From Actinomycetes bacterium (lineage in GTDB: Bacteria > Actinomycetota > Acidimicrobiia > Acidimicrobiales > Palsa-688): 41,303 bases of DNA. Both the position numbers and the translations under genes were made by a program. Below the pieces are notes generated by a model, which worked only from the letters and a program-made list of their open reading frames with translations, ran no database searches and was not told the DNA's origin. How positions within the stretch are numbered: position 1 is the first letter of the stretch; the number at the start of each line of letters is the position of its first letter. Of the stretch, positions 3,326-40,416 are shown piece by piece. The DNA is taken from NCBI GenBank assembly GCA_021799445.1, contig JAJZAM010000007.1:1-41303 (forward strand), in the 5' to 3' direction.

Positions 3326-4279
3326 GTGACCTCCCCACTTTTGAGCTCGGGCCGCCCGCCTGCGGCCCGAGCTCAAGACCCCGCTGTCCCCGCCCCCGGG
3401 CGGCGTCGCCTCGGACTCGATGCCGGAAAAAGGCGTGCCGGTCTGAAGTTCGTGGCACCGGCACTCGTGCTTTTGATCATTTTGGACGTCGCTCCTATCC
3501 TGACCGAGCTGTTCTACAGTTTCACGAAGTTCAGCCTCTTAAAACCTGCCCACCTCGTCGGTTTCGCTGAGTACGAAGCGTTGTTCAGCGATCCGGTGTT
3601 CTGGCACAGCGTGTTGAGGACGTTCTACTTCGCCGGAGTACTAGTAGTCGTCGGAATTGCCGTTTCGCTCGGAGTGGCAGTACTTCTCACCCAGACGATA
3701 ATCGGGACCACGTTTCATCGAATCGTGATCTTCCTACCCCAGACGGTTTCTTACGCGGCGGGAGCGCTTATATGGGTATGGCTGTTTAACCCCACCTCGG
3801 GGCCAATCAACACCCTCATCTCTTCTCTGGGTGGCCCGAGTATAGGCTGGCTGAGCTCGCCCGGCATCGCCATGCCCTCCCTCCTCATCGTCAGCCTGTG
3901 GCGAGATACCGGCTACTACATGTTGGTCTTCCTTGCAGCTCTGGCTAATGTCCCCACAGAGCTCTACGAGGCCGCCCACCTCGATGGCGCCGGGCCGATC
4001 CGGACCTTCCGTGAGGTTGTTCTGCCGAGCATTCGCCCGGCGATGCTTTTCGTCCTGCTCACGTGGACGTTGGGCGCCTTGCAGATGTTTACTCAGGCCT
4101 ATGTCATGACCAACGGAGGCCCCGGCAACGCAACTCTTAGCGTCGTGCTCGACATATACAAGGAAGGTTTTCAGGATCTCAGTCTCGGTTACGCGAGCGC
4201 CGAGTCGTTTGTCGTCTTCTTGTTCTGCTTAGTGCTCAGCCTCGTGTACGTGCGCTGGTTCCGGACGAGGATTGATTAG
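3326..4279 (+). CDS. Carbohydrate ABC transporter permease (MalF/UgpA-like)
   Basis: 317 residues with six predicted membrane segments from about residue 40 onward, and the cytoplasmic EAA loop ELYEAAHLDGAGPIRTFREV near residue 213, which docks on the ATPase. It pairs with the next permease as the membrane channel of a sugar importer. It starts 7 bases after the binding-protein stop at GTG 3326, but no Shine-Dalgarno is visible and a 15-bp hairpin covers codons 6-17, so the true start could be later; GTG 3452 is the next in-frame candidate but would leave almost no residues before the first membrane segment. The poorly conserved, Pro/Ala/Arg-rich first 35 residues fit either view. Confidence 0.88.
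   Translation: MTSPLLSSGRPPAARAQDPAVPAPGRRRLGLDAGKRRAGLKFVAPALVLLIILDVAPILTELFYSFTKFSLLKPAHLVGFAEYEALFSDPVFWHSVLRTFYFAGVLVVVGIAVSLGVAVLLTQTIIGTTFHRIVIFLPQTVSYAAGALIWVWLFNPTSGPINTLISSLGGPSIGWLSSPGIAMPSLLIVSLWRDTGYYMLVFLAALANVPTELYEAAHLDGAGPIRTFREVVLPSIRPAMLFVLLTWTLGALQMFTQAYVMTNGGPGNATLSVVLDIYKEGFQDLSLGYASAESFVVFLFCLVLSLVYVRWFRTRID
3341..3376 (+). other. Perfect 15-bp stem-loop after the binding-protein gene
   Basis: TTGAGCTCGGGCCGC (3341-3355) and GCGGCCCGAGCTCAA (3362-3376) are perfect reverse complements around a 6-base loop. It begins 22 bases after the binding-protein stop and lies over the first codons of the downstream permease. Stem-loops here commonly stabilise the upstream message or attenuate read-through so that binding protein exceeds permease (the malE-malF precedent). 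There is no T run, so full termination is unlikely. Confidence 0.7.
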
Positions 4280-18675: not shown

Positions 18676-19305
18676 TCAGCTTTCCAGGGTCTGCGAATGC
18701 GAGAAGGCGGCTAGTCTCACCCGACGCTCCACTTCGTCGGGATCGCCGGTGCCGTCTACGATCCTCCACCGGATCGGATCAGAGGTCGCCATTGCCACGA
18801 AGCTGGCCGCTATCCGCTCGAAGAACGCTTCGTCCTCGGATTCGATACGGTCGGCGTTGCGCGACCTTATCCGAGCCTGCGCTTCAGCCGGCGGAACTAC
18901 TAGGAGTATCACCCGGTCGGGCGCTAGGCCCGAAGAAGCCCAATCCGAGATCCACGAGAGCTGCTCGGGGTCCAACCCGCGCCCGTAACCCTGGTAGGCG
19001 AGGGTGCTGGCCGAGAAACGGTCGCACACGACGTGGCGGCCAGACGCGAGAGCGGGAGCTATCACGTCTTGGACATGCTGGGCTCTCGCTGCCATCATAA
19101 GAAGCGCCTCGGCGCGCGCCGAGACGTCCGGCCCGGCTGGGTCGAGCAGCAACGACCTGACTCTCTCCCCAAGAGGCGTACCGCCCGGTTCCCTGGTCAG
19201 GACGGCTCCGATGGCCTGGGCTAGGCGGGCCGCCTGGGTCGACTTGCCACTCCCCTCGCCGCCTTCGAGGACTATGAAGCGGGCGGCTGCGGGGCTGTCA
19301 ACCAC
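18676..19305 (-). CDS. tmk: Thymidylate kinase
   Basis: 209 residues from GTG 19305, which overlaps the topA stop by 8 bases; the frame continues further upstream but only as a Pro/Arg-rich translation of topA's tail. Motifs: P-loop GGEGSGKST (15-23), TREPGGTPLGE, CDRFSASTLAYQGYGRGLD with the DR motif, and a LID segment RIRSRNADRIESED. It phosphorylates dTMP to dTDP in the cytoplasm. The length fits the family (about 205-215). The Arg pattern in the LID could indicate the E. coli-like type, but I did not resolve this. It is co-transcribed with topA and holB. Confidence 0.94.
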   Translation of the reverse strand: MVDSPAAARFIVLEGGEGSGKSTQAARLAQAIGAVLTREPGGTPLGERVRSLLLDPAGPDVSARAEALLMMAARAQHVQDVIAPALASGRHVVCDRFSASTLAYQGYGRGLDPEQLSWISDWASSGLAPDRVILLVVPPAEAQARIRSRNADRIESEDEAFFERIAASFVAMATSDPIRWRIVDGTGDPDEVERRVRLAAFSHSQTLES

Positions 19306-22165
19306 CGGCTTTCTTGGCCCCTGCAGCCTTGTTGGCCGTCGTTGCTTTCTTGGCTCCGGTGGTTTTGTTGGCCGTCGCGGACGCCTTGGACGCTGAGGTC
19401 GCTTTCTTCGCCGGCACGACCTTTTTTGCCGGGACAGCCCTCTTCGCCGGTCCGGCCTTCTTGCGCCCACCTGCCGGCCTGCCCGGACGTGGCGGTGCGC
19501 TGCGACGGTCGGAGAGGAGCTCCGCTGCGCGCTCGGTGGTTATCCCGTCGACGGTGTCACCTTTTCGAAGCGAAGCGTTCGTAGTCCCGTCGGTCACGTA
19601 AGGACCGAAGCGGCCGTCTTTGACCAAGATCGTGACGCCAGAGGCGGGGTCAGGGCCAAGTTCACGCAGAGGAGCTGCGGCAGCCGCCCTTCCCCGGCGT
19701 TCCTTAGGCCGGGAGAAAAGCTCCAAAGCTTCCTCCAACGTGACGGTAAAGAGCTTCTCCTCCGAGTCGAGGGACCGGGAGTCAGAACCCTTTTTCAGGT
19801 AGGGACCGTAACGCCCATTGGTCGCTTCGATCGGTTCGCCACTATCCGGATCGACTCCGACCAGACGCGGAAGGCTGAGCAGCCGGAGCGCCTCGTGCAA
19901 AGTGATGGTCTGGGGGTCCATGCCCCGCAGAAGCGACGCTGTGCGAGGCTTGGAGCCCGCCGCCTTCGACGTAGGTTCTTCGGAAGGTTCGCCCTCTTGG
20001 ACGTAGGGACCGAAACGCCCCGTCTTGACGTACACCGCTAAACCGGTTTGCGGGTTCACTCCTAGCTCGCGCTCAGACGATCCCGCTTCGAGCAGCTCAA
20101 GCGCCTTGGCGACTGTCAGCTCGTCGGGAGCGAGATCTTCGGGCAGGGGAGCTCGCTGCCCGAAGCTCTGCGGCATGGAACCCGGATCCCCGGCAGGCGA
20201 AACAGGTCCCGGACCCGCTTCGCCTGGGGGAACTTCACGCTGGATGTAGGGACCGTAGCGCCCCACCCTTACGACGATCCCGGAGTCCGGTCCCCCCACG
20301 GGAATAGAGTTCACCTCGCGAGCGTCGATCTCGCCAAGGTTCTCCAGCACCAGTTTCTTCAAGCCTGGCTCCGAGTCGCCCAGCTTTGAGTCGCCGGTCG
20401 TGTCGCGTAGGCTCCCGAAGTAGAACCTGGTAAGCCAAGGGATAGCGTCACGCGCTCCGTTGGCGATCTCGTCTAAGTCTTCCTCCATAGACGCCGTGAA
20501 GCCGTAGTCGACGAGCCCGGAGAAATGGCGTTCGAGGAGGCCGACAACCGCAAACGCCGTCCAGGAAGGGACCAGCGCCGAGCCTTTCTTCCAGACGTAA
20601 CCACGGTTCTGGATGGTCTCCAAGATCGAGGCGTAAGTCGACGGGCGGCCGACTCCCATGTCCTCCAACGCCTTCACCAGGGATGCCTCGCTGTAGCGCG
20701 CCGGGGGCGCTGTCTGATGCTCCTCGTCTTGTAGGGAGTCGAGCGCCACACTGTCACCTACGTCGAGTGCCGGAAGGCGAACCTCGCGATCCTCCAGCTC
20801 AGAATCAGGGTCATCTGAACCTTCGACGTAGGCCCGAAGGAAGCCTGGGAAGGTGATAACCCTGCCCGAAGTGGCGAACACGGCGTCCTCGCCGCTGCTC
20901 GAGATGGCACCGAGACGAACCGACACGCTCCGTCCGACTGCGTCAGCCATCTGGGACGCCACGGTGCGCATCCAGATGAGCTCGTATAGCCGCCGGGCGT
21001 CCCCGCTCAGTCCCGTCTGCTCCGGCGTCTTGAAGGCCTCCCCGGCGGGACGGATGGCTTCATGAGCCTCTTGGGCGTTTTTAACCTTCTTGTCGTAGCG
21101 GCGCGGGGAACTAGGGACGTAATCGTCGCCGTAGAGGGCCCGAGCCTGGGAACGGGCCGCCTCCAGCGCCTCCGACGACAAGGTAGTCGAGTCGGTACGC
21201 ATGTAGGTGATGTGGCCCGATTCGTAGAGCTCCTGAGCCACGCGCATAGTGCGAGCGGCCGGGAAGCGGAGCTTACGGCTCGCCTCCTGTTGGAGCGTGG
21301 AAGTCATGAACGGCGCGTGCGGGCTTCGCCGCCACGGTTTCTCCTCCACCGAGCGGACGCCGAAAGAGGCGTCGCGAAGCCTGGCCGCGAGCTCAGCAGC
21401 CCTCGCCGAGTCGAGCAGGATCACATCCGAGCGTGTTAGGCCCCCGGACTCGTCGAAGTCACGGCCGCTGGCTAGGCGCTTACCGTCTAGTTCTACCAGC
21501 GACGCGCCGAAAGACTCGGGCGGCTCTCCGCCCAGGAAGACACCCGTAAGGTCCCAGTAGGAGGCCGACCTGAAGCGCATCCTGGCTCGCTCGCGTTCCA
21601 CCACCAGACGGGTGGCCACTGACTGCACCCGACCTGCGGACAGGGACGGCATGATCTTCTTCCAAAGGACCGGACTGACTTCGTAACCGTAGAGACGGTC
21701 GAGTATCCGCCGGGTTTCCTGGGCGTCGACCAGGCGACGGTCAAGTTCCCTCCAGTCTCGAACAGCCCGCTGTATCGCCGGTTGGGTTATCTCATGGAAG
21801 ACCATCCGCTTGACCGGAACGGTCGGGGCGAGCACTTCTAGGAGGTGCCATGCGATCGACTCACCCTCGCGATCCTCGTCGGTTGCGAGGTACAGTTCGC
21901 TTGCGTCCTTGACCATCTTCTTTAGCTTTCGAACCTGTTCTCGCCGCTCGGGTGACACCACGTACAGCGGCTTGAAGTCGTTGTCCACGTCAACGCCCAA
22001 ACGCGCCCAAGGTTCCGACTTGTACGCGGGCGGTATATCCGCCGCACTTCTCGGCAGGTCCCTGATGTGGCCGATCGAAGACTCCACGTCATAGTCCGGT
22101 CCGAGAAAGCGCGAGATGGTGCGCGCTTTCGCCGGGGACTCCACTATCACAAGGGGTTTAGGCAT
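19298..22165 (-). CDS. topA: DNA topoisomerase I (type IA)
   Basis: 955 residues from ATG 22165 (a TTG 21 bases upstream is an alternative). The Toprim domain starts LVIVESPAKA with catalytic Glu9; IGHIRDLP and LATDEDREGESIAWH hold the metal-binding acidic residues; SGHITYMRTDS contains the nucleophile Tyr321, close to E. coli Tyr319; GVGRPSTYA follows. After residue 590 come about four copies of a C-terminal repeat with a GRFGPYV or GRYGPYL core, and a final Lys/Ala tail of about 55 residues, instead of the zinc fingers of E. coli. This architecture is typical of actinobacterial TopA. It relaxes negative supercoils. The Lys/Ala tail resembles histone-H1-like DNA-binding tails. Confidence 0.96.
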   Translation of the reverse strand: MPKPLVIVESPAKARTISRFLGPDYDVESSIGHIRDLPRSAADIPPAYKSEPWARLGVDVDNDFKPLYVVSPERREQVRKLKKMVKDASELYLATDEDREGESIAWHLLEVLAPTVPVKRMVFHEITQPAIQRAVRDWRELDRRLVDAQETRRILDRLYGYEVSPVLWKKIMPSLSAGRVQSVATRLVVERERARMRFRSASYWDLTGVFLGGEPPESFGASLVELDGKRLASGRDFDESGGLTRSDVILLDSARAAELAARLRDASFGVRSVEEKPWRRSPHAPFMTSTLQQEASRKLRFPAARTMRVAQELYESGHITYMRTDSTTLSSEALEAARSQARALYGDDYVPSSPRRYDKKVKNAQEAHEAIRPAGEAFKTPEQTGLSGDARRLYELIWMRTVASQMADAVGRSVSVRLGAISSSGEDAVFATSGRVITFPGFLRAYVEGSDDPDSELEDREVRLPALDVGDSVALDSLQDEEHQTAPPARYSEASLVKALEDMGVGRPSTYASILETIQNRGYVWKKGSALVPSWTAFAVVGLLERHFSGLVDYGFTASMEEDLDEIANGARDAIPWLTRFYFGSLRDTTGDSKLGDSEPGLKKLVLENLGEIDAREVNSIPVGGPDSGIVVRVGRYGPYIQREVPPGEAGPGPVSPAGDPGSMPQSFGQRAPLPEDLAPDELTVAKALELLEAGSSERELGVNPQTGLAVYVKTGRFGPYVQEGEPSEEPTSKAAGSKPRTASLLRGMDPQTITLHEALRLLSLPRLVGVDPDSGEPIEATNGRYGPYLKKGSDSRSLDSEEKLFTVTLEEALELFSRPKERRGRAAAAAPLRELGPDPASGVTILVKDGRFGPYVTDGTTNASLRKGDTVDGITTERAAELLSDRRSAPPRPGRPAGGRKKAGPAKRAVPAKKVVPAKKATSASKASATANKTTGAKKATTANKAAGAKKAGG

Positions 22166-30642: not shown

Positions 30643-32202
30643 TCAAAGAACGCCGAGCGCCACGAGCGCTGCCACGGCTATAACCATGGCGGCGACGACG
30701 ACAAAAGCCTTCACCACAAGCGGGAGGTGAACCGGCCCATGGGTTCCCCCAGTTGTCCCCATGCCGGTGGCTGGCTCCCGTAGCACGCTGGGTTTATTGG
30801 AAGCCTGGGCTGGGGCGCCGCCGCCCGTGCCTGACCGTCTCGCGCCGGCAACGGCTCGGCGGGCGCCTGACACCCGACCCCAACGCGCCCCGACACCGAC
30901 GTGACGGGCAGCAGACGCTGCGAGCCTGGCACCGTCACCGTCTGGGGACACTGCCCAACCGGGATCGCTCGGGGATACCGGCATCTCCTGCCGGTGTGGC
31001 CTGGCGGATTTCAAGGGTTCGAGGGATTCTAAGGGCTCGTCGGAGCCTTTGAGAGGTACCTGCGGTTGACCTCTTGTAGCCGCTGGGAAACTCTCGACTC
31101 TAGGGTTGCCGGCGAGGGGTGTCTCGAGAGCCCTTCGGGACCTTCTCGGGCGGGAGGTTTCGATTGTGTTGCGATCCTTAGCTGAAGGTGTCGCATCGGC
31201 GTGGGATGGATCTTCTTCGACGATCAGCCGGAAGGCTTCTATCCCGGTGGCGTCGTCTCCATTTTCCCGCTCAGTGTCGGGTCTAAAGTGCTGTTCGCCG
31301 GGGAGCCGCAGATCCTCTTCTGTCCACCCGTGACACTCCCGAATCTCGTCTAGAGCCGCTGAGCATTGCGCCGGGCTGGACGGCCTCAAGGAGGGATTCT
31401 TGGCGATCGCCGAACCGACAAAGCTCCTCAGATCGTCAGGTATCCCCCCGCGTAGGGGAGCTGCCTGCTCGGCTAGGACTCTCAGAGCGAACGCGGCGGC
31501 GGACTCTCCTGGGAGAACTTCGAAAGGTGCTCGCCCGCTCAGCACGTTATAGATCACGGATCCGAGTGAGTACACGTCTGCTGGCGGCCCGGAAGCGAAG
31601 CCTTCGAGCACCTCGGGGGCCGCGTGACGCACGAGGTCAGCACCTTCGCTCAGAGGAGCGAAGGCGACCTCACCCGATACGAGGCTGGCGAACCCGGCGA
31701 CCTCGACGTTGCCACCTGGTCGTACCATGATGTTCTCGGGGCACAGAGCCAGGTGCGACATTCCAGCGCAATGGAGTACTGCTAGGGCACTTGAGATGCT
31801 CAGACCGATGTTGACTGCCTGCGCCGGCGTCGCCGTCCATCCCCGGGACATGCCGTCCGACAGGCTCCAAGACCGGTGGGCGACGACTAAGCCCAGGCGA
31901 CCCCCCGGGAGCTCCAGGAGGTCTCGCACATGACTGATGTTGGGGTGTACGCTCAGCTCTGTTAGCCAGCGCGCCCGCTTCCAGGCATGCCGGTGTTGCG
32001 ACCTCGTGGAGCTTCCGGGGTCCACCAGCTCGATCTCCACGCGGCCGCGGGTCCTCGGGTCGCACGCTTCGTAGCTGTTACGAGCCGCCCGGTGGGCTCG
32101 AGCTACTAGCGGCGCGTACGCTGCCAGCTGGGACGCTAGTTGGGCGGTGTCGAGCTCTTCTGTCTTCTTGTCGAAAAGCCACAAAGCGCTACGGTCGATC
32201 AT
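30643..32202 (-). CDS. Tail-anchored protein-kinase-fold protein, probable pseudokinase
   Basis: 519 residues from ATG 32202, with GAGGAGG 7 bases upstream; it overlaps the preceding gene by 14 bases. The kinase fold is recognisable from NIMVRPGGNVEVAGF, AAPEVLEG and DVYSLGSVIYNVLSGRAPF. The catalytic residues are missing: the HRDLKPEN loop reads HLALCPEN (150-157) with Ala for Asp, the DFG motif reads GFA (170-172), and no VAIK lysine is seen in RVEIELV. A long disordered Ser/Pro/Arg-rich region (about 300-490) leads to a C-terminal membrane helix at about 494-519. It is likely a cytoplasmic scaffold or sensor at the membrane rather than an enzyme. It is the last gene of the MoxR operon. Confidence 0.87.
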   Translation of the reverse strand: MIDRSALWLFDKKTEELDTAQLASQLAAYAPLVARAHRAARNSYEACDPRTRGRVEIELVDPGSSTRSQHRHAWKRARWLTELSVHPNISHVRDLLELPGGRLGLVVAHRSWSLSDGMSRGWTATPAQAVNIGLSISSALAVLHCAGMSHLALCPENIMVRPGGNVEVAGFASLVSGEVAFAPLSEGADLVRHAAPEVLEGFASGPPADVYSLGSVIYNVLSGRAPFEVLPGESAAAFALRVLAEQAAPLRGGIPDDLRSFVGSAIAKNPSLRPSSPAQCSAALDEIRECHGWTEEDLRLPGEQHFRPDTERENGDDATGIEAFRLIVEEDPSHADATPSAKDRNTIETSRPRRSRRALETPLAGNPRVESFPAATRGQPQVPLKGSDEPLESLEPLKSARPHRQEMPVSPSDPGWAVSPDGDGARLAASAARHVGVGARWGRVSGARRAVAGARRSGTGGGAPAQASNKPSVLREPATGMGTTGGTHGPVHLPLVVKAFVVVAAMVIAVAALVALGVL

Positions 32203-34645
32203 ACGACCGCCTCCTCGATGGACGACCACGGCCCGTGGATCTTCCAAGCAAAATGGTAGCGGCCTTCGACCGGATGCGGCGGGCCTGGAGCCCGACCAAC
32301 TGACGCGACTCTACTTTGATAGCTGCGCGCACGTCGCTTTCCGCCTGCCAAAGCTCTTCGACGTCGTCTTGGCCGATGGGAGCAGATGGGTTAAACACAG
32401 CCCTCTCGGCTAGTAACGCGACCAGACCTGCGGGTTCGAGGACCGCTGGACCATAAACCCCGGCGAGTTCCACGGCCATCTCAGCGTTGGTGGAAGCCTC
32501 AGGCAGGTGCACGCCACGCCTTCCGGCTAGCTCGAGTATCTCGCTCCACGCTCCGACTACCTGACCGGGGGGATCGGCCGCGACCCGTCGTCGCCGGCGA
32601 GCTCGCCGCTTCAGCCAAGGCAGCACCGCAGCGCCAGCCGCAGCCACGACAAACAAGATCAGTACTGACAGGGCCCAGTCCACCGGGCCTCTCTTGGCGG
32701 GTGCCGGCGCGGGTGCAGGCGGTGCCACCGCGTGCTGCTCGCCAGTTGCCGGGCTTGGTTCTGCTACGGCGCCGGGAGAGGCAACCGTTGTAGGCACCGT
32801 CTGGGCCGGTTCGGGCGGCGGACTTGCCGCAGCGGTCGCCGCAGTCGGTGTCGGGTCTGCTACCAGCCAGCCCTTTCCAACGACTGGTATCTCTACCCAT
32901 GTCCAAAGCTCAGAGCTGTTCAGCTCGTAGGCGACTGAAGCCGGCGCTGCCGACCGTCCCGGGGAGGGGAGGCGGATGCCCGTTACCACCCTCGACGGCA
33001 CTCCAAGTAGCCTCGCCGCAACCGCAAAGAAAGTGGCGAACTGTTCGGGTGTGGCCGCTCTGTCTACGGTAACAGCGTTTATCACTTGGGCCAGGGAGGT
33101 TCCACCCAAAGGCGGTGATGGTGAAATCGACGGGTCTACCCACTTGTCGTCAGCGCGCAGAGCTCGCAGCGCAGCTTCGAGGAACTCCACGGAAGCTGCC
33201 GGTCTCATTCCGGTCAGGTAAGCCAGGAACCCGACGGTCGCGTTCAGGTACGACTGCGCCTCTTGTGGAAGCTCGATGTCGGCCCTGCCACCGGCTTGCA
33301 GGTCTATTTCGGAACCAGAGGGTATCTGCTTGAACGTCAGAGCAACCGTTCGCGAACTGACAGTATATTTAACAGCGGAGACCCCGTCGTCCTTCAGGAT
33401 CATGCCTGTCATCTCATCATCGGCTACTGATACCCCTGACACTTCGGAAGGGCGCCCAACAGCCGGCAGTAGCGGGATCGGCCACGATGCAGCCAAGTTG
33501 AACCTCTGCCGGGCCACACGCTTTCCCGTCCCAGCGGGTGACGGGTCCGGGATCCGACCGCCGGTCGGCACGAACGTCGCCTTGAATGACCACAGACCTC
33601 CCGTGTAGTCGTTGAGTACCGCCGCCTGAAGGTAGCGGGTATGCGGGCCAGATACGGTCACTGAACCCAACGACACGGGACGCGCGCCGTTGTCGTCACG
33701 TAGACGCGCTAGCTCGTCCACAGGGTCGTCTACCACCGGTGTCAGCACCCGAGCCTGGAGACGTAACGTTACGGGTTTAGCGGAGCCGATGAGACTAGAA
33801 GGCACCACTACAGCCAGGAGCGAAGCGACCAGTGCGGTTGCGACCGTAGCCCGAGCAACAGGACCGAAACGCAAAATCAGGCTCGAACCGGCACGCCTCC
33901 CGGCCGGATGGGTCTCCACCAAGTAGCTTCCGGTGGGATCGGGTATGTCGACCGCGCTGAGGCCGCTGTGAGGAAAACCCGACGAAGATTGCTCCTTCAA
34001 CTTGCCAAGGTCGTGAATCATGGCCGCGGCCACAGCCATAGCTACGAGCAGTTCCGGGCCACTCACCCGACTTTGGGAGGGCGACGCAAAAGCGACTGCG
34101 ACGGATCCGAGGTAGACGGCTAACGGTACGCACAGCGCAAAGACACCACGGTGAGGACCAAGCGTTGCATCTACCTCAGGCGGGGGCGAGTCTGGACCTG
34201 CACGTGTCGGGCCTATACCGGGGAGTGCCCTCGCAACTATTTCGGCACTTATCGCTGCCGAGATCCACTCGACGACGAACAATGGGACGAGGGTGCTCAT
34301 CCCCCCCACGAGGGGGAGGGTTTCGCTTAGCAAGTTCCTTGGTCCGCTATCGAGCGAATCCCACAGGGTCACCACGTTGCCCTGACAAATCCCCAGGGCC
34401 ACCACTGCGAGCACGCTGATGCTGACCGCCAGGCTTGCTACTGAGCTGATCTTATAGCGACGGGAACTGATGAAAGCTATGGCGACTGCGGCCGGTGCAG
34501 CTCCCCACAAAACCGCCGGCGCCCACGCTACACGGTACGCCGCAATAAGGGGACTGACGGCAACGACAGAGACGAGAGCCACTGAGGCGGCCAAACCGGC
34601 AAGCCTCGGATCCCCGACTGTCAAAGACCCGCTCCGATACGCCAC
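32189..34645 (-). CDS. TgpA-like transglutaminase-fold membrane protein, catalytic residues apparently lost
   Basis: 818 residues: six or so N-terminal membrane helices, an extracytoplasmic domain (about 290-670) with a transglutaminase core, a Pro/Ala/Thr-rich linker, a helix at about 670-693 (VDWALSVLILFVVAAAGAAV) and a cytoplasmic DUF4129-like tail. The core aligns with the family at PEQFATFFAVAARLLGVPSR and GKGWLVADPTPT. The family motif with the catalytic Cys (GxCEQFA) reads ATPEQFA with Pro533, and the HAWVE His position is Trp581 (WTWVE); only Asp597 remains. It is therefore probably inactive as a transglutaminase or protease. GTG 34645 overlaps the DUF58 gene by 25 bases. Confidence 0.88.
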   Translation of the reverse strand: MAYRSGSLTVGDPRLAGLAASVALVSVVAVSPLIAAYRVAWAPAVLWGAAPAAVAIAFISSRRYKISSVASLAVSISVLAVVALGICQGNVVTLWDSLDSGPRNLLSETLPLVGGMSTLVPLFVVEWISAAISAEIVARALPGIGPTRAGPDSPPPEVDATLGPHRGVFALCVPLAVYLGSVAVAFASPSQSRVSGPELLVAMAVAAAMIHDLGKLKEQSSSGFPHSGLSAVDIPDPTGSYLVETHPAGRRAGSSLILRFGPVARATVATALVASLLAVVVPSSLIGSAKPVTLRLQARVLTPVVDDPVDELARLRDDNGARPVSLGSVTVSGPHTRYLQAAVLNDYTGGLWSFKATFVPTGGRIPDPSPAGTGKRVARQRFNLAASWPIPLLPAVGRPSEVSGVSVADDEMTGMILKDDGVSAVKYTVSSRTVALTFKQIPSGSEIDLQAGGRADIELPQEAQSYLNATVGFLAYLTGMRPAASVEFLEAALRALRADDKWVDPSISPSPPLGGTSLAQVINAVTVDRAATPEQFATFFAVAARLLGVPSRVVTGIRLPSPGRSAAPASVAYELNSSELWTWVEIPVVGKGWLVADPTPTAATAAASPPPEPAQTVPTTVASPGAVAEPSPATGEQHAVAPPAPAPAPAKRGPVDWALSVLILFVVAAAGAAVLPWLKRRARRRRRVAADPPGQVVGAWSEILELAGRRGVHLPEASTNAEMAVELAGVYGPAVLEPAGLVALLAERAVFNPSAPIGQDDVEELWQAESDVRAAIKVESRQLVGLQARRIRSKAATILLGRSTGRGRPSRRRSYDRP

Positions 34646-35772
34646 CTTCGGGCCACCTCGTCAGCGTTGCGCCCCTGCAGGATCGACACGCCGGCATGTG
34701 CGCCGTGATTCGTTGGTTCATCGACGATTGACGCTACGACGATACGATCGAAGCGACGGCGCAGTGCTGACATGGCAGCCAGCACCTCGCCGGAGAGGAT
34801 TCCCCCGACGACTACTAGGCTCGTCCCCCCCTTGGTGCGACGCAGTAGCAGTAGCTGCTCTAGAACAGACCCGGAGTCGTCTGGTGTGACATCGGTAAGG
34901 TAGTCTTCGATAGCGTTTACATCGCTGATTGAAGCGCCGCCCAAGATGACACCTGAGGTGCTTCTCAATATGACCGGTGCCCGGCCACTTGACATGCAAG
35001 TCGCGACTGATGCAGCCACGTCCACAGCTTGCTCGAAACCGGCTTCGCTGTAATTCGCTGGGTTGAGGTCCAACACCAGGACCGTTCGCGGTTGCGCAGT
35101 GTCCACGTTCTGGCGAACTACCAGGCGCCCGAGGTGGGCGCTCGACGGCCAATGGACCAGCCGGAGGTCGTCGCCAATGACGTACTCGCGCAGTCGGTGA
35201 AATGTGATGCTCCCCTGCGGGGACGTGTCGCTGGATGGTCCTTCCACTATCCTGGAGGTCCCAACAGGTAGCGGCGACAAAGTCACTATCCGGGGACGCA
35301 CTCGGATGACGTCAGTTGAACCCAGGATTTGGACACTTTTCCACAATCCGAACGGGTCGGAACGCGGGAGATCAACTGGACCAACCTGGATGGTTCCTCT
35401 TGAATCTGTGGGAAGCCGGTACGCACGGATGGCAGACTGGCCGGCAGCAAGGCTGGGCAGGCGGGAAGTGAGGCGTCTCTCCCCAATGTTCTGTTCGATG
35501 GTCAAAGAGCTAATTGCGTGACGGGATTGGTTAGTAGCTTCGATGAGCGCCACCGCCGGGCTTCCTTTCTCCACGTAATGAGGCTCGATGCTCCGACGGA
35601 GGCTAACCCTGGGTCGGAGCATCACGTAGCCGAGCGAGCCGGCGTCGATGACGACGAACCCAACGCCTAGCACCGTCACCGGCTCCCAGCGAGCCACGAG
35701 CCCGACGAGGCCGACGACCATCCCTACCAGACCGCTCACAACACCAAATGTGTTGACGCCGGTGGATCTCAC
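34621..35772 (-). CDS. DUF58 (von Willebrand A-like) membrane protein
   Basis: 383 residues. Two N-terminal helices at about 8-27 and 32-52 anchor the protein; the rest is cytoplasmic or surface-facing by family analogy. The DUF58 signature FHRLREYVIGDDLRLVHWPS, then SAHLGRLVVRQ, is clear near residues 190-220, followed by VLVLDLNP, the start of a vWA-like fold. DUF58 proteins nearly always pair with MoxR ATPases and are thought to be their clients or adaptors in assembling membrane complexes. GTG 35772 overlaps the moxR stop (GTGA). No enzymatic role is established. Confidence 0.92.
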   Translation of the reverse strand: MRSTGVNTFGVVSGLVGMVVGLVGLVARWEPVTVLGVGFVVIDAGSLGYVMLRPRVSLRRSIEPHYVEKGSPAVALIEATNQSRHAISSLTIEQNIGERRLTSRLPSLAAGQSAIRAYRLPTDSRGTIQVGPVDLPRSDPFGLWKSVQILGSTDVIRVRPRIVTLSPLPVGTSRIVEGPSSDTSPQGSITFHRLREYVIGDDLRLVHWPSSAHLGRLVVRQNVDTAQPRTVLVLDLNPANYSEAGFEQAVDVAASVATCMSSGRAPVILRSTSGVILGGASISDVNAIEDYLTDVTPDDSGSVLEQLLLLRRTKGGTSLVVVGGILSGEVLAAMSALRRRFDRIVVASIVDEPTNHGAHAGVSILQGRNADEVARRWRIGAGL

Positions 35773-36737
35773 GACTTCGGGCGTCGGGGCACGGGTACGG
35801 CGGCGAGCGCTCTTTCCACGATGTCGTGGGCACTGACACCTCGAAGCTCGGCCTCGGATCTCATGATTATGCGGTGAGCGAGTGTTGGACCTGCCATCGC
35901 CTTCACGTCGTCGGGGCTGACGTAACTCCTACCCTCGGCTGCTGCCACAACGCGCGCGGCTCGCAGGAGCGCTATCCCTCCACGAGGTGATACGCCTAGA
36001 CGTACCTCGGAGCGGTTGCGGGTCTCGGCACATATTGCAACTATGTAATCCTCCAAAGCGGCGGAGACCTCAACGTTGCACTTCACCACCTCCACCAAAT
36101 CCAACAGTTCGTCGCCGGTCATGACCGGCGCAAGACTTGCGACGACCGGTTCGTCCTTCTCGGCGCGCAGGACCAGGGCCTCCTGTTCCGGGCTTGGGTA
36201 GCCGATCTCGATCCGCATAAGGAACCGGTCAAGCTGGGCTTCCGGCAGAGCGTAGGTGCCTTCCAAGTCGATCGGGTTTTGAGTGGCTACTACGACAAAC
36301 GGACGAGGAACCCTGTACACGGTGGCATCAGTGGTAACAGTTCGCTCCTGCATAACCTCAAGAAGCGCTGACTGTGTCTTCGGGGACGCACGGTTGATCT
36401 CGTCTCCCAAGACGATGTTAGCGAACACCGGACCGGGACGAAAGCTGAAGCTCGAGGTTGCCTGGTCGAATACCGAGATACCGGTCACGTCGCTCGGGAG
36501 TAGATCTGGAGTGAACTGGATTCGATTCCACGTGAGAGCGACCGATGCCGCTATCGACCGCGCCAGTGATGTCTTTCCCACACCTGGTACGTCTTCGATC
36601 AGAAGATGGCCTTCCGCAAGGACGCAGCCGACCGCCTGTCTGACTACTTCGTCTTTACCGCGGACTGCCAGGCAGACGTTCGAAACTAGGCGATCGAAGC
36701 GCTGAACGAAAGCGCGCATACCTGGATTGACGGTCAA
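35769..36737 (-). CDS. MoxR-family AAA+ ATPase
   Basis: 322 residues with the AAA_3 core: Walker A EDVPGVGKTS (48-57), Walker B VLGDEINRAS (109-118), sensor 1 FVVVATQNPIDLEGTYALPE and arginine-finger region EAQLDRFLMRI, then the lid domain with VSPRGGIALLRAARVVAA. MoxR ATPases act as chaperones that mature or insert protein complexes. TTG 36737 follows GAAGGGA with good spacing; ATG 36719 is an alternative that loses six residues. The gene is followed at once by DUF58 and transglutaminase-like genes, the usual MoxR company, and preceded after 49 bases by the FnIII protein gene. Confidence 0.94.
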   Translation of the reverse strand: MTVNPGMRAFVQRFDRLVSNVCLAVRGKDEVVRQAVGCVLAEGHLLIEDVPGVGKTSLARSIAASVALTWNRIQFTPDLLPSDVTGISVFDQATSSFSFRPGPVFANIVLGDEINRASPKTQSALLEVMQERTVTTDATVYRVPRPFVVVATQNPIDLEGTYALPEAQLDRFLMRIEIGYPSPEQEALVLRAEKDEPVVASLAPVMTGDELLDLVEVVKCNVEVSAALEDYIVAICAETRNRSEVRLGVSPRGGIALLRAARVVAAAEGRSYVSPDDVKAMAGPTLAHRIIMRSEAELRGVSAHDIVERALAAVPVPRRPKS

Positions 36738-36786
36738 AATTGTCCCTTCAATGTTCCTATGCGAGGCCTCTGGCTGCCCGGGAATG

Positions 36787-39700
36787 TCACTGCGCCGAGG
36801 AGTGCCGTGCAGGGGCCAGCGGCGGCTGGGTAGTGGACGTGGTCGTAGGCATCGAACCCGTCGTCGTGGTAGAACCCGAACCCGTCGACGTCGTCGTCGT
36901 GGTAGAGCCCGAACCCGTCGTCGTCGTCGTGGTAGAGCCCGAACCCGTCGACGTCGTCGTAGAACCCGAACCCGTCGACGTCGTCGTGGTAGAGCCCGAA
37001 CCCGTCGACGTCGTCGTGGTAGAACCAGAACCCGTCGACGTGGGCGTGGATGTCGGACCTGACGGTGGTGGGGTTGCTGGAGTACCGGCTTCTACCTGCA
37101 CCTCCTGGCCGAGGTACCGGTAGCTCACTGTCACGGTAACGTCATTGCCATTCGGGCACGTTTGGGGCAGTTCAATCGTCACGGGAAACGATGGGGCTCC
37201 CAACATTTTTGATGCTGCGCAGGGGTCGTTGAATCCTGGCGAAGTTTGACCGCCTTTGCCGGTGGTGCCCGAAGGCGCCGGTAAGGCGGGAGGCGCACCC
37301 TGCGTAGCGGTTGAGACTGTCCACGCCCCACCGGCAAGTGGCTGTGGTCCGTTACTGGATACTACGACCTGCCAAGCCGAGCCGGGAAGCTGGCCGCATG
37401 TGCCGGGGTCCTGGCAGGTTTCGGCGGCTGTCACCGCAAAAGAGTAAGAAGGTTGGGAACCGATCTCGAAGCTCGCCGTCAATAGTGGAGAATCGATTCC
37501 GTATGGGTTAGTCCCTGACGTATCCGCCAGGTTGAAAGATATTTTGCACGCTCCGCCCAAGTCGACGAGGTCGACGGGGAACTGCACTCGATCCGCAATG
37601 ATTGGGGTCGGTGGCTCGTCGAGCGACACATCCGAGCAGCTCAACACGCCGGCCACAGCCGTCAAAGGGACCGCGGGCAGATCAGCGGGAAAACCCACCG
37701 TCACGATGCCCTTGTTGGGGTTTGACTCTACGGCTGCTTGTACTTCTAGGTCCGGCTGCAAGTCGGATGGCCAGGGTAAGTTGATCTGGAAGGCTGATCC
37801 GCTAACCGTGACCGAAGCGTTAGGGTGGCCACTCGGGTAGACCGTGACGGTGGCCACGTATGGAGTTCCAAGTGACAAGCCCGGCACCGTAACAGAGGTC
37901 TCGTTCGTAGGCCCTACGGTGTCATTTCCGACTTTGTAAATGAAGTCCGCCTGCGACGGCGCGGTGCCGAAGGCAGCCGTCGGGTCTCCCGTGACGTCCA
38001 CTTGAAGTTGGGCGCTGAGCGACGACCCATGCGCTGCTCCTGCGCTCGTCAGGGATATGTCCGAGGCTGTTGGGTCAGCCCACGACCGTGTGCAGGTACC
38101 GTCTGCAGTCGAGCGACCGACAAGGCCGCTGCTGAGCTCGCCTTGGACGCTGAAGGAAAAGGCGTCGCCGAGCAAGCCGAGTTTCTCGCTCGGTATCACA
38201 ACCGTGTCCTTGTCGCCAGACACCACTACTTGTGGAGGGGATGTGACGACTGTTCCTCCGCAGGCCGAGCCCAAGACACTCCAGCTGTCGGCAGGAACAA
38301 CACAGTGGGGATTAGCAGCCTCGGTGCATGGGACCCAGGAGACCACCCAGTCCCCGTTGGAGTCGGCTACTGCAGAGACGCTCAAGGGGGCGTCGGGCCC
38401 GCGATCAAGAGTGGTGAACTCCAGCGAGTTAGAGGTTGTCGAAAGCGAATTGATGTAAGCCGTGACCGAGACGACGTAGCTCGTTGCGGGCCTGAGACCA
38501 CTGAAAAGGTACTCCTGCTCCCCGGTGACGCGCTGGATGGACGGGGCGGGCTGCGGGGCACCTCCGAGCGCTTCTACTTGGACGGTCCAGGATTGGGGTT
38601 CACAGTCTGTCTCTTGGAGCAGTTGGTAGCTCCACGCGACGAGTACGTCCTCCGACGAGGGTGTCACCGCAGTTATTTGCGGTACGTGAGGTTGTTGTGA
38701 CGTCGTGGCACAGACTACTTTCCTGCTGAGCGGACTCACGACGGGCAGCGGGAGGGCAGTCTTGCTGGGCGCAGGAACGGTCGTGGCGGACGTGGTATCG
38801 GGGGCGCCCGGATTTCCATTCTGCTTCGGACTCCCGGGCTGTTTGCCGGCCGTCGACTTGGTTACCGGCCCGCCCGGGCTGGGGGTGGCGGTGAGAACAG
38901 CCGGGCCTTGTGCGCTCACAGTGACCGAGTCCGCTTTGTCGACTACCGCCGGCGGTCGGGACTTGTCGGTGAATACGACGACCGCTTCCAAGTTCTGGGG
39001 ATTGTTGAATACGACCCTGGGCCCGTCGCCGAGCACCTCAGCGTCGGTGAAAGTGTTCTTGGCCTCCGCGCTGCTGTAGAGGGGATAGTCGTTAGTTCCC
39101 GCCACCGGACTCATCAAAGCGTCGGAGGTCCTAATCTGCCACAGCGCAGGCCGGCCGATCTGGGTTCTATCTATCGTGTACAAGTAACCCGCTGAAAGAA
39201 CTGGCGGGGCCGGGTCAGAGGTAGCGTGAAAGCCGCTCAAAGGCTTCGGGCCGACCAACGTTCCGGACCGGGACACGCCGTAAAGGCTCCACCCGGACCC
39301 GCCCCGGGCTAAGAACCAGGCCTCGTTGACGGCTCCGGTCACAGCTACGGTGCTCGTGGTCGCATCTGTAAAGGAGGTCCGCACGCTCCGTGAAGTCCGC
39401 CCCGACGTTGGCGACGCCACCTTGAGCTCAAAGCTCGCATTCGAGAGCGTCCCGACGCCAGAATGGCCAGCAGCCGGCACATCGACGCTGGGTTGGGGAG
39501 CTGGGTCTAGAACTGTCACCCAGCCTGGGCTCGCCACGGCTACGAAATTTGCAGCGGACTCGACGGATAAACCCCTACACGTCTGGCGGGGAAACGTTGC
39601 TCTGATATGCACCGATATCCCTTCGGGAGCCGAGCGGTCCGGCACCAGCTGGTACAGCTGGCACCCACCGCCGGATTCGGCCAGTTGCCACAACTGTACG

Positions 39701-40344
39701 CCCTGAACCGCCCTAGCCGAGGACGACAGGACCGCTCTACCAGGAAGGGTAGCAAACCCGATAGGGCTGACCCGTGCGCGCGGAGACGCAAGCTTGGACT
39801 GGGCTGCTAGCGCGGCTGACACGGTCTGGCTCCCTACAAGCGAGACCGTGCTCGTCGGAGCGGACCGGATTATGTACGCGTCAGCTCCAGCAGCGATACC
39901 CGCTGCCCCGGTAGCCTTGCTGAGGGAGCCGAGGCCGACGCCGGGCGCGTGCGGGTCGGTAACGTAGTTGTCAGCGCCCAAGAAGTTGAAACTTCCGGTC
40001 AGCTTGTTCACCAGCACCGTCCCACCCTGCACCGCCACTGGTTGGACCGTCGCGTAGTCGGACGCCCCGACTAGGGTGTCAACGCCTTCGAGGCGCACCT
40101 CGACCGTCGCAGTGGTCACGTCGATCACCGACAGGGGCCTCACGTCGCTCAGGACCAGCGACCCACCGAAGACGCTCAGCCGTCTAGACGCTAGCGGTGG
40201 GGCCCCAAGCACAGACCACAGAATCCCGCCCAGAACAGCCACGACCGTTCCCAACGCGAAAAGTGCGCCTCCCAGTCCGAGCGGTGGGGTCGCGTTACGC
40301 GCGAGTGCCCCGTGGTCAAGCTGGGAGGGCTCACGAGGGCCCAC
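36787..40344 (-). CDS. Large membrane-anchored FnIII-type extracytoplasmic protein with Ser/Thr/Gly tail
   Basis: 1185 residues from GTG 40344, which follows GGAGGG by 7 bases; a TTG at 40389 would add 15 residues without such a site. After a short cytoplasmic tail there is one membrane helix (about 23-48), then a beta-rich domain of about 450 residues that may be a propeller, a Pro/Ser/Lys linker, and fibronectin type III domains starting near residue 565 (PQITAVTPSSEDVLVAWS, with YLFSGLRPATSYVVSV); further beta-sandwich domains follow. The last 110 residues are Thr/Ser/Gly repeats encoded by a minisatellite. It is the first gene of the MoxR operon and looks like a surface-exposed binding or stalk protein. 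No enzymatic motif is seen. Confidence 0.85.
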   Translation of the reverse strand: MGPREPSQLDHGALARNATPPLGLGGALFALGTVVAVLGGILWSVLGAPPLASRRLSVFGGSLVLSDVRPLSVIDVTTATVEVRLEGVDTLVGASDYATVQPVAVQGGTVLVNKLTGSFNFLGADNYVTDPHAPGVGLGSLSKATGAAGIAAGADAYIIRSAPTSTVSLVGSQTVSAALAAQSKLASPRARVSPIGFATLPGRAVLSSSARAVQGVQLWQLAESGGGCQLYQLVPDRSAPEGISVHIRATFPRQTCRGLSVESAANFVAVASPGWVTVLDPAPQPSVDVPAAGHSGVGTLSNASFELKVASPTSGRTSRSVRTSFTDATTSTVAVTGAVNEAWFLARGGSGWSLYGVSRSGTLVGPKPLSGFHATSDPAPPVLSAGYLYTIDRTQIGRPALWQIRTSDALMSPVAGTNDYPLYSSAEAKNTFTDAEVLGDGPRVVFNNPQNLEAVVVFTDKSRPPAVVDKADSVTVSAQGPAVLTATPSPGGPVTKSTAGKQPGSPKQNGNPGAPDTTSATTVPAPSKTALPLPVVSPLSRKVVCATTSQQPHVPQITAVTPSSEDVLVAWSYQLLQETDCEPQSWTVQVEALGGAPQPAPSIQRVTGEQEYLFSGLRPATSYVVSVTAYINSLSTTSNSLEFTTLDRGPDAPLSVSAVADSNGDWVVSWVPCTEAANPHCVVPADSWSVLGSACGGTVVTSPPQVVVSGDKDTVVIPSEKLGLLGDAFSFSVQGELSSGLVGRSTADGTCTRSWADPTASDISLTSAGAAHGSSLSAQLQVDVTGDPTAAFGTAPSQADFIYKVGNDTVGPTNETSVTVPGLSLGTPYVATVTVYPSGHPNASVTVSGSAFQINLPWPSDLQPDLEVQAAVESNPNKGIVTVGFPADLPAVPLTAVAGVLSCSDVSLDEPPTPIIADRVQFPVDLVDLGGACKISFNLADTSGTNPYGIDSPLLTASFEIGSQPSYSFAVTAAETCQDPGTCGQLPGSAWQVVVSSNGPQPLAGGAWTVSTATQGAPPALPAPSGTTGKGGQTSPGFNDPCAASKMLGAPSFPVTIELPQTCPNGNDVTVTVSYRYLGQEVQVEAGTPATPPPSGPTSTPTSTGSGSTTTTSTGSGSTTTTSTGSGSTTTSTGSGSTTTTTTGSGSTTTTTSTGSGSTTTTGSMPTTTSTTQPPLAPARHSSAQ
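36854..37057. repeat. In-frame minisatellite encoding the Thr/Ser/Gly tail
   Basis: Seven imperfect tandem units each begin GAACCCGTCG, at 36854, 36878, 36911, 36941, 36968, 36998 and 37028. The spacings are 24, 33, 30, 27, 30 and 30 bases, all multiples of three, so every length change keeps the frame. Units differ by whole GTC/GTG/GTA triplets. On the coding (minus) strand they encode TTTTSTGSGS-like repeats; all three phases on the plus strand are also largely open, producing false frames. Confidence 0.95.
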
Positions 40345-40416
40345 TACCGTACCCTCCGACGCCGGCCGAGGCCAGAAGCCATGGAGCAACCATAGCCCCG
40401 ATGAGGCGTCGGGCGT

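Follow-up and report, generated by a model that had tools for sequence, protein, structure and literature searches.

Why does a gene for a large FN3 protein end in a tandem repeat, and what might the repeat-coded segment do for the protein? This question is raised by a locus near one end of a 41,303-nt stretch of DNA, hereafter the window, from an Actinomycetes bacterium known as a draft metagenome bin (3.0 Mb, 332 contigs, 76.6% complete). The original prediction described a frame-preserving minisatellite that changes copy number by slippage and codes for a stalk of variable length, possibly a target of O-mannosylation. We examined the array, the protein, its homologues and the neighboring genes.

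An in-frame coding minisatellite

The strongest tandem repeat that TRF finds in the window spans positions 36859–37049, with a period of 30, 6.4 copies, 89% matches and a score of 285. The next unrelated array scores 98, and the top score in 50 simulated first-order windows was 69. These values confirm the presence of a minisatellite at the end of the FN3 gene. Read in coding orientation (minus strand), positions 37032–36859 comprise six clean units of 30, 30, 27, 30, 33 and 24 bases, each coding for GSGS and a run of Thr and Ser, with a partial unit in front. Behind them follows a degenerate seventh unit (36829–36858, minus strand) coding for GSMPTTTSTT. The predicted count of seven units of 24–33 bases is therefore correct if the degenerate copy is included, but only six units are clean. 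Among these six the length differences are whole triplets, as predicted. Most are Thr codons (ACG, or CGT on the plus strand; the GTC named in the prediction is the same triplet in another register). The base differences between the six units are synonymous (GGT/GGC, TCG/TCT) with the sole exception of one Ser/Thr change. Unit parsing and the Pfam match described below also bear out that the array is coding, preserves the frame, is rich in Ser, Thr and Gly, and forms the C-terminal end of an FN3 gene.

The repetition resides in the DNA and not only in the protein. The tail-coding stretch contains 121 repeated 15-mer positions. The highest count in 2000 recodings that follow the codon usage of the gene was 28, and the highest in 2000 shuffles of the synonymous codons present in the tail was 78. 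The observed autocorrelation was matched by 5 of these 2000 own-codon shuffles and the longest repeat by 2. The motif (ACS)6 occurs once in the draft, incomplete assembly, namely at the array. With tandem units in multiples of three bases, in frame within a gene, the array is a genuine in-frame coding minisatellite and a slightly unusual case of a familiar kind.

Could the unit number be an error of the metagenome assembly? The bin is a draft in 332 contigs, and a collapse of identical units would leave no trace. However, the units differ from one another, the longest exact repeat inside the array measures 39 nt, and an array occupies the same place in a separately assembled congener. We consider an assembly artefact extremely unlikely.

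A function of the array at the RNA or DNA level was set aside: its RNA fold is no better than that of shuffled sequences (z −0.53). An Rfam scan of the window gave no match at the gathering score, and no promoter-like or terminator-like sites were found between 36600 and 37200. An antisense reading frame with VVVVEPEP repeats (36740–37123) was taken as a by-product of a repeat that is open in another frame.

After this array, the strongest tandem repeats of the window (TRF scores 98 and 63; 19298–19600, minus strand) lie in a gene for topoisomerase I (Pfam Topoisom_bac, 7e-111) and code for its C-terminal tail, which is rich in Lys and Ala. This tail overlaps the 5′ end of a listed thymidylate kinase reading frame.

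The encoded protein

The fn3 gene (36787–40389, minus strand; one match in the genome) codes for 1200 residues, counted from the first TTG as the putative start. An AlphaFold2 model built with 16 sequences (mean pLDDT 69.7, pTM 0.43) predicts with low confidence a membrane helix at residues 40–62 (40204–40272, minus strand), and our alignment of the homologues (A1) places a hydrophobic segment at this position also in relatives. The helix is followed by an all-beta, propeller-like domain (residues 77–492; 38914–40161, minus strand). The single Pfam FN3 match above the curated cut-off covers residues 571–655 (PF00041, 4.7e-09; 38425–38679, minus strand). From there to residue 1105 (37075–38424, minus strand), the strands of the model and Foldseek matches to tandem FN3 proteins suggest further beta-sandwich modules. 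Residues 1107–1200 (36790–37071, minus strand) form the Thr/Ser/Gly-rich tail, which contains 41% Thr and 23% Ser and is predicted to be disordered (pLDDT under 50).

The Foldseek matches listed first include tandem FN3 fragments, cytokine receptors and the ectodomains of ROS1 and Sevenless; in this listing the TM-scores by query length do not exceed 0.18. Because these scores are low, we only infer a propeller-like fold for the N-terminal domain. A PDB sequence search with a profile of the N-terminal part gave no match at E values up to 0.1. Across 148 genomes of the order, the same profile had matches in 5, and each of these belongs to the family of the window. The predicted low-confidence helix and homology suggest that the protein is exposed at the cell surface.

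Relatives with and without a second anchor

We identified 17 homologues in 32 genomes of the family; in the other 15 none was found, partly due to incompleteness. In 11 of the 17, a conserved YLG segment is followed in frame by a Thr-rich linker, a hydrophobic helix and basic residues. A twelfth homologue (G014, locus L006) carries the helix in another frame: a gap of two Ns in its Thr linker shifts the frame, and linker and helix continue beyond it. Three homologues are cut or rearranged, two by contig ends (G028 and G029) and one (G023) that has no moxR gene behind it. The locus of the latter (L013) departs after position 3648, where the fn3 homologue ends early, with no Thr linker, helix or moxR; either a rearrangement or a chimeric contig may account for this. 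Linker statistics were computed for 14 genes, with these three left out and G014 kept despite its gap. G014 was also left out, with the same three, from the comparison of repeat units, and was not used for alignment A1, the structure model and the tree.

The C-terminal helix is absent from the remaining two homologues, that of the window (G000) and that of a congener (G001, 74% identity). No helix above threshold was found in any frame between array and moxR in either genome. The best 19-residue hydropathy mean in this interval is 1.07 in the window (in another frame) and 0.41 in the congener (over all frames). The threshold of 1.1 was chosen after seeing the tails; two accepted helices lie barely above it (1.15 and 1.17), and the window's 1.07 lies barely below. 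The repeat has no recognizable anchor on its far side in these two genomes, and the term stalk, as used in the original prediction, is not supported. The window's protein shows a single membrane helix, at the N-terminus (residues 40–62); in relatives that carry a C-terminal helix, the Thr-rich segment links the head to it.

The tails of the window and its congener nevertheless correspond to the linkers of the relatives. They belong to the same gene, follow the YLG segment, are rich in Thr and vary in length (33–274 residues among the 11 linkers with a helix in frame; repeat units vary as well). They differ in that no helix follows and in the Gly/Ser spacers that separate the runs of Thr. In an unrooted tree a branch supported at 100/99 separates the two proteins, together with the helix-bearing homologues G012 and G022 and with G028, whose end is cut, from the other sequences. 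The simplest reading, which is not proved, is that the C-terminal anchor has probably been lost in the genus of the window. The branch leading to the pair is the longest inner branch (0.79), and with the root placed there, loss and gain of the anchor cannot be told apart.

With no membrane helix seen other than the N-terminal one, the tail would project outward as an unattached end, and is probably a free tail of this sort rather than a stalk. We propose that the protein is a surface protein with an N-terminal anchor and with propeller-like and FN3 domains, and that the minisatellite codes for its disordered outer end, rich in Thr, Ser and Gly. In the ancestral state this segment would most likely have been flexible and have linked the FN3 head to a second membrane anchor at the C-terminus. 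With this anchor missing in the genus of the window, and probably lost, the repeat would end as a free tail. Slippage or unequal recombination could add or remove units of 3n bases and thereby change the length with the frame intact, and the tail itself would be a passive flexible spacer or extension with a loosely constrained sequence. Taken as a whole, this account of a former linker, now the free and passive end of a PFNA-like surface protein, appears to us to be likely.

A related idea, compatible with this account, is that the tail became unconstrained once the C-terminal anchor was gone, so that the repeat reflects drift in a dispensable end. The genus does sit on a long branch and has no helix, and the tail is encoded at the very end of the gene. 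On the other hand, all six units keep GSGS and the run of Thr and Ser, nearly all of their base changes are synonymous, and both congeners maintain tails of similar length (101 and 97 residues) and similar Thr/Ser/Gly make-up. A purely neutral remnant therefore seems doubtful. An equally tentative extension of the spacer model concerns the difference between the two architectures: in relatives that would be doubly tethered the repeat-coded Thr linker might set how far the head moves, and with a one-ended display in the genus of the window, the length of the repeat might tune reach and not tether length.

Under the favored reading of a free outer tail, a Thr-rich and fast-changing segment has been kept in the absence of the helix found behind it in most homologues. 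Homologues with and without the second anchor thus offer a natural comparison for what such linkers do.

Turnover of the repeat

The original prediction expected the array to vary between strains. Between species it does turn over. At the same place and with similar flanks, the congener carries 6.5 copies of a 21-bp unit (93% matches) with motifs of the type TTTGGSS instead of the 30-bp unit of the window and its GSGSTTTTST. A second congeneric pair (G019 and G027) has a common 15-bp unit, present in 6.6 and 4.9 copies, respectively; the remaining units differ. In six of the 14 genes (G000, G001, G005, G017, G019 and G027) the repetition in the DNA exceeds that of all 500 own-codon shuffles; for G010, the observed value was attained by 2 of the 500. 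Since units differ between congeners and six of the genes show such an excess, we conclude that the linkers change by gain and loss of repeats in some lineages. The seven tails with no clear excess (G003, G009, G011, G012, G014, G016 and G022) indicate that repeat-driven change is not universal. The sample of the genus consists of three genomes, one per species, one of which has no match. A scan of genome contigs for further copies returned one locus, that of the congener, and a search of IMG/VR gave no match. Judged from sequence, slippage between strains of one species is plausible.

Would the array then have been selected for its mutability? As a contingency locus it would let the tail vary in length within a strain and alter adhesion or exposure. 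This has been proposed for staphylococcal SD repeats, which are reported as unstable in a plasmid assay (PMC3324548). In-frame units, an exact internal repeat of 39 nt, a surface-type protein and the different unit of the congener would all suit such a role. However, the units have already acquired base differences that should slow slippage, and in the window the tail does not bridge a binding head and an anchor. We regard this explanation as quite improbable.

Proposed glycosylation of the tail

A composition of 41% Thr and 23% Ser invites the idea of a mucin-like tail whose Thr/Ser repeats are there to accept O-mannosylation, a modification already raised in the original prediction. There are precedents in the literature: a review discusses mannosylation in the linkers of C. 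fimi enzymes and in the C-terminal tails of PASTA kinases (PMC12757957), and a bifidobacterial FN3 protein has been termed a glycoprotein (PMC8430577). We searched for the enzymes that such a modification would use. PF16192, the mannosyltransferase module PMT_4TMC, was found in none of 20 genomes of the family (0/20; completeness 76.6% for the bin of the window, 90% and 77% for its congeners). Outside the family, one of 12 genomes of the order has it. Among 14 controls it was found in one, Corynebacterium glutamicum. The broader model PF02366 matches 11 of the 20 family genomes (E up to 0.001), which would favor the proposal, but none of the three genomes of the genus. This model is also less specific, as 8 of the 14 controls are positive and both E. 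coli and B. subtilis match. Furthermore, proline, described in the review as high in many M. tuberculosis glycopeptides (PMC12757957), is absent from the six clean units. The absence of PF16192 from 20 incomplete family genomes weakens the mannosylation proposal; it concerns the Pmt route and not other kinds of O-glycosylation. With these observations combined, an origin of the repeat as a set of mannosylation sites appears very unlikely. The case recommends caution, in that not every Thr-rich tail is a stalk or a mannosylation target.

Gene cluster and comparison with known systems

The fn3 gene is the first in a cluster on the minus strand. It is followed by genes for a moxR-type AAA+ ATPase (35769–36737; Pfam AAA_3, 3.3e-61), a DUF58 protein (34621–35772; PF01882, 2e-08), a transglutaminase-like protein (32189–34645; PF01841, 3.2e-08) and a protein kinase (30643–32247; PF00069, 4.1e-18), and the downstream genes are the same in the congener. 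The spacing from the fn3 stop codon to moxR is 49 nt in the window and 10 nt in the congener. A moxR gene stands behind fn3 in 13 of 16 loci of relatives; of the other three, two are cut by contig ends and one is rearranged. In four loci (L005, L008, L015 and L017) the moxR match begins, by its coordinates, on the final base of the fn3 frame.

The closest parallel to the array itself are the SD repeats of staphylococcal ClfA and Sdr proteins, described as an in-frame coding minisatellite that links a binding domain with an anchoring domain (PMC3324548). Both are in-frame coding minisatellites for a disordered surface segment, in which length can change with no frameshift. They differ in composition, with Ser/Asp in the SD repeats and Thr/Ser/Gly in the window, and in placement: SD repeats connect two domains, whereas no C-terminal anchor is seen in the protein of the window. 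The instability of SD repeats has been assayed in plasmids; the array of the window is known from sequence alone.

For the ATPase gene, the bpMoxR model PF20030 gives a further match (32.4 bits, with a cut-off of 27), which recalls the MoxR-vWA-beta-propeller ternary systems, where the propeller is reported as fused to the vWA component (PMC7159879). In the window the propeller would instead sit in a separate, membrane-anchored FN3 protein. Assignment to a ternary conflict system was considered and set aside. For the ATPase, AAA_3 is by far the better model (205.4 bits).

As a cluster, the locus most resembles the PFNA operon of Bifidobacterium, given as pkb2-fn3-aaa-atp-duf58-tgm (PMC8430577). 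In the window and in the congener, genes for FN3 protein, MoxR-type ATPase, DUF58 and transglutaminase are adjacent, in the same order and on one strand, accompanied by a kinase gene. This kinase gene comes last, after the transglutaminase, whereas bifidobacterial pkb2 comes first. The likeness is one of gene content and of the order of these four genes. The mycobacterial moxR locus has likewise been compared to PFNA (PMC12067865). With the window, a PFNA-like cluster is seen beyond the bifidobacteria, the group in which the operon was described.
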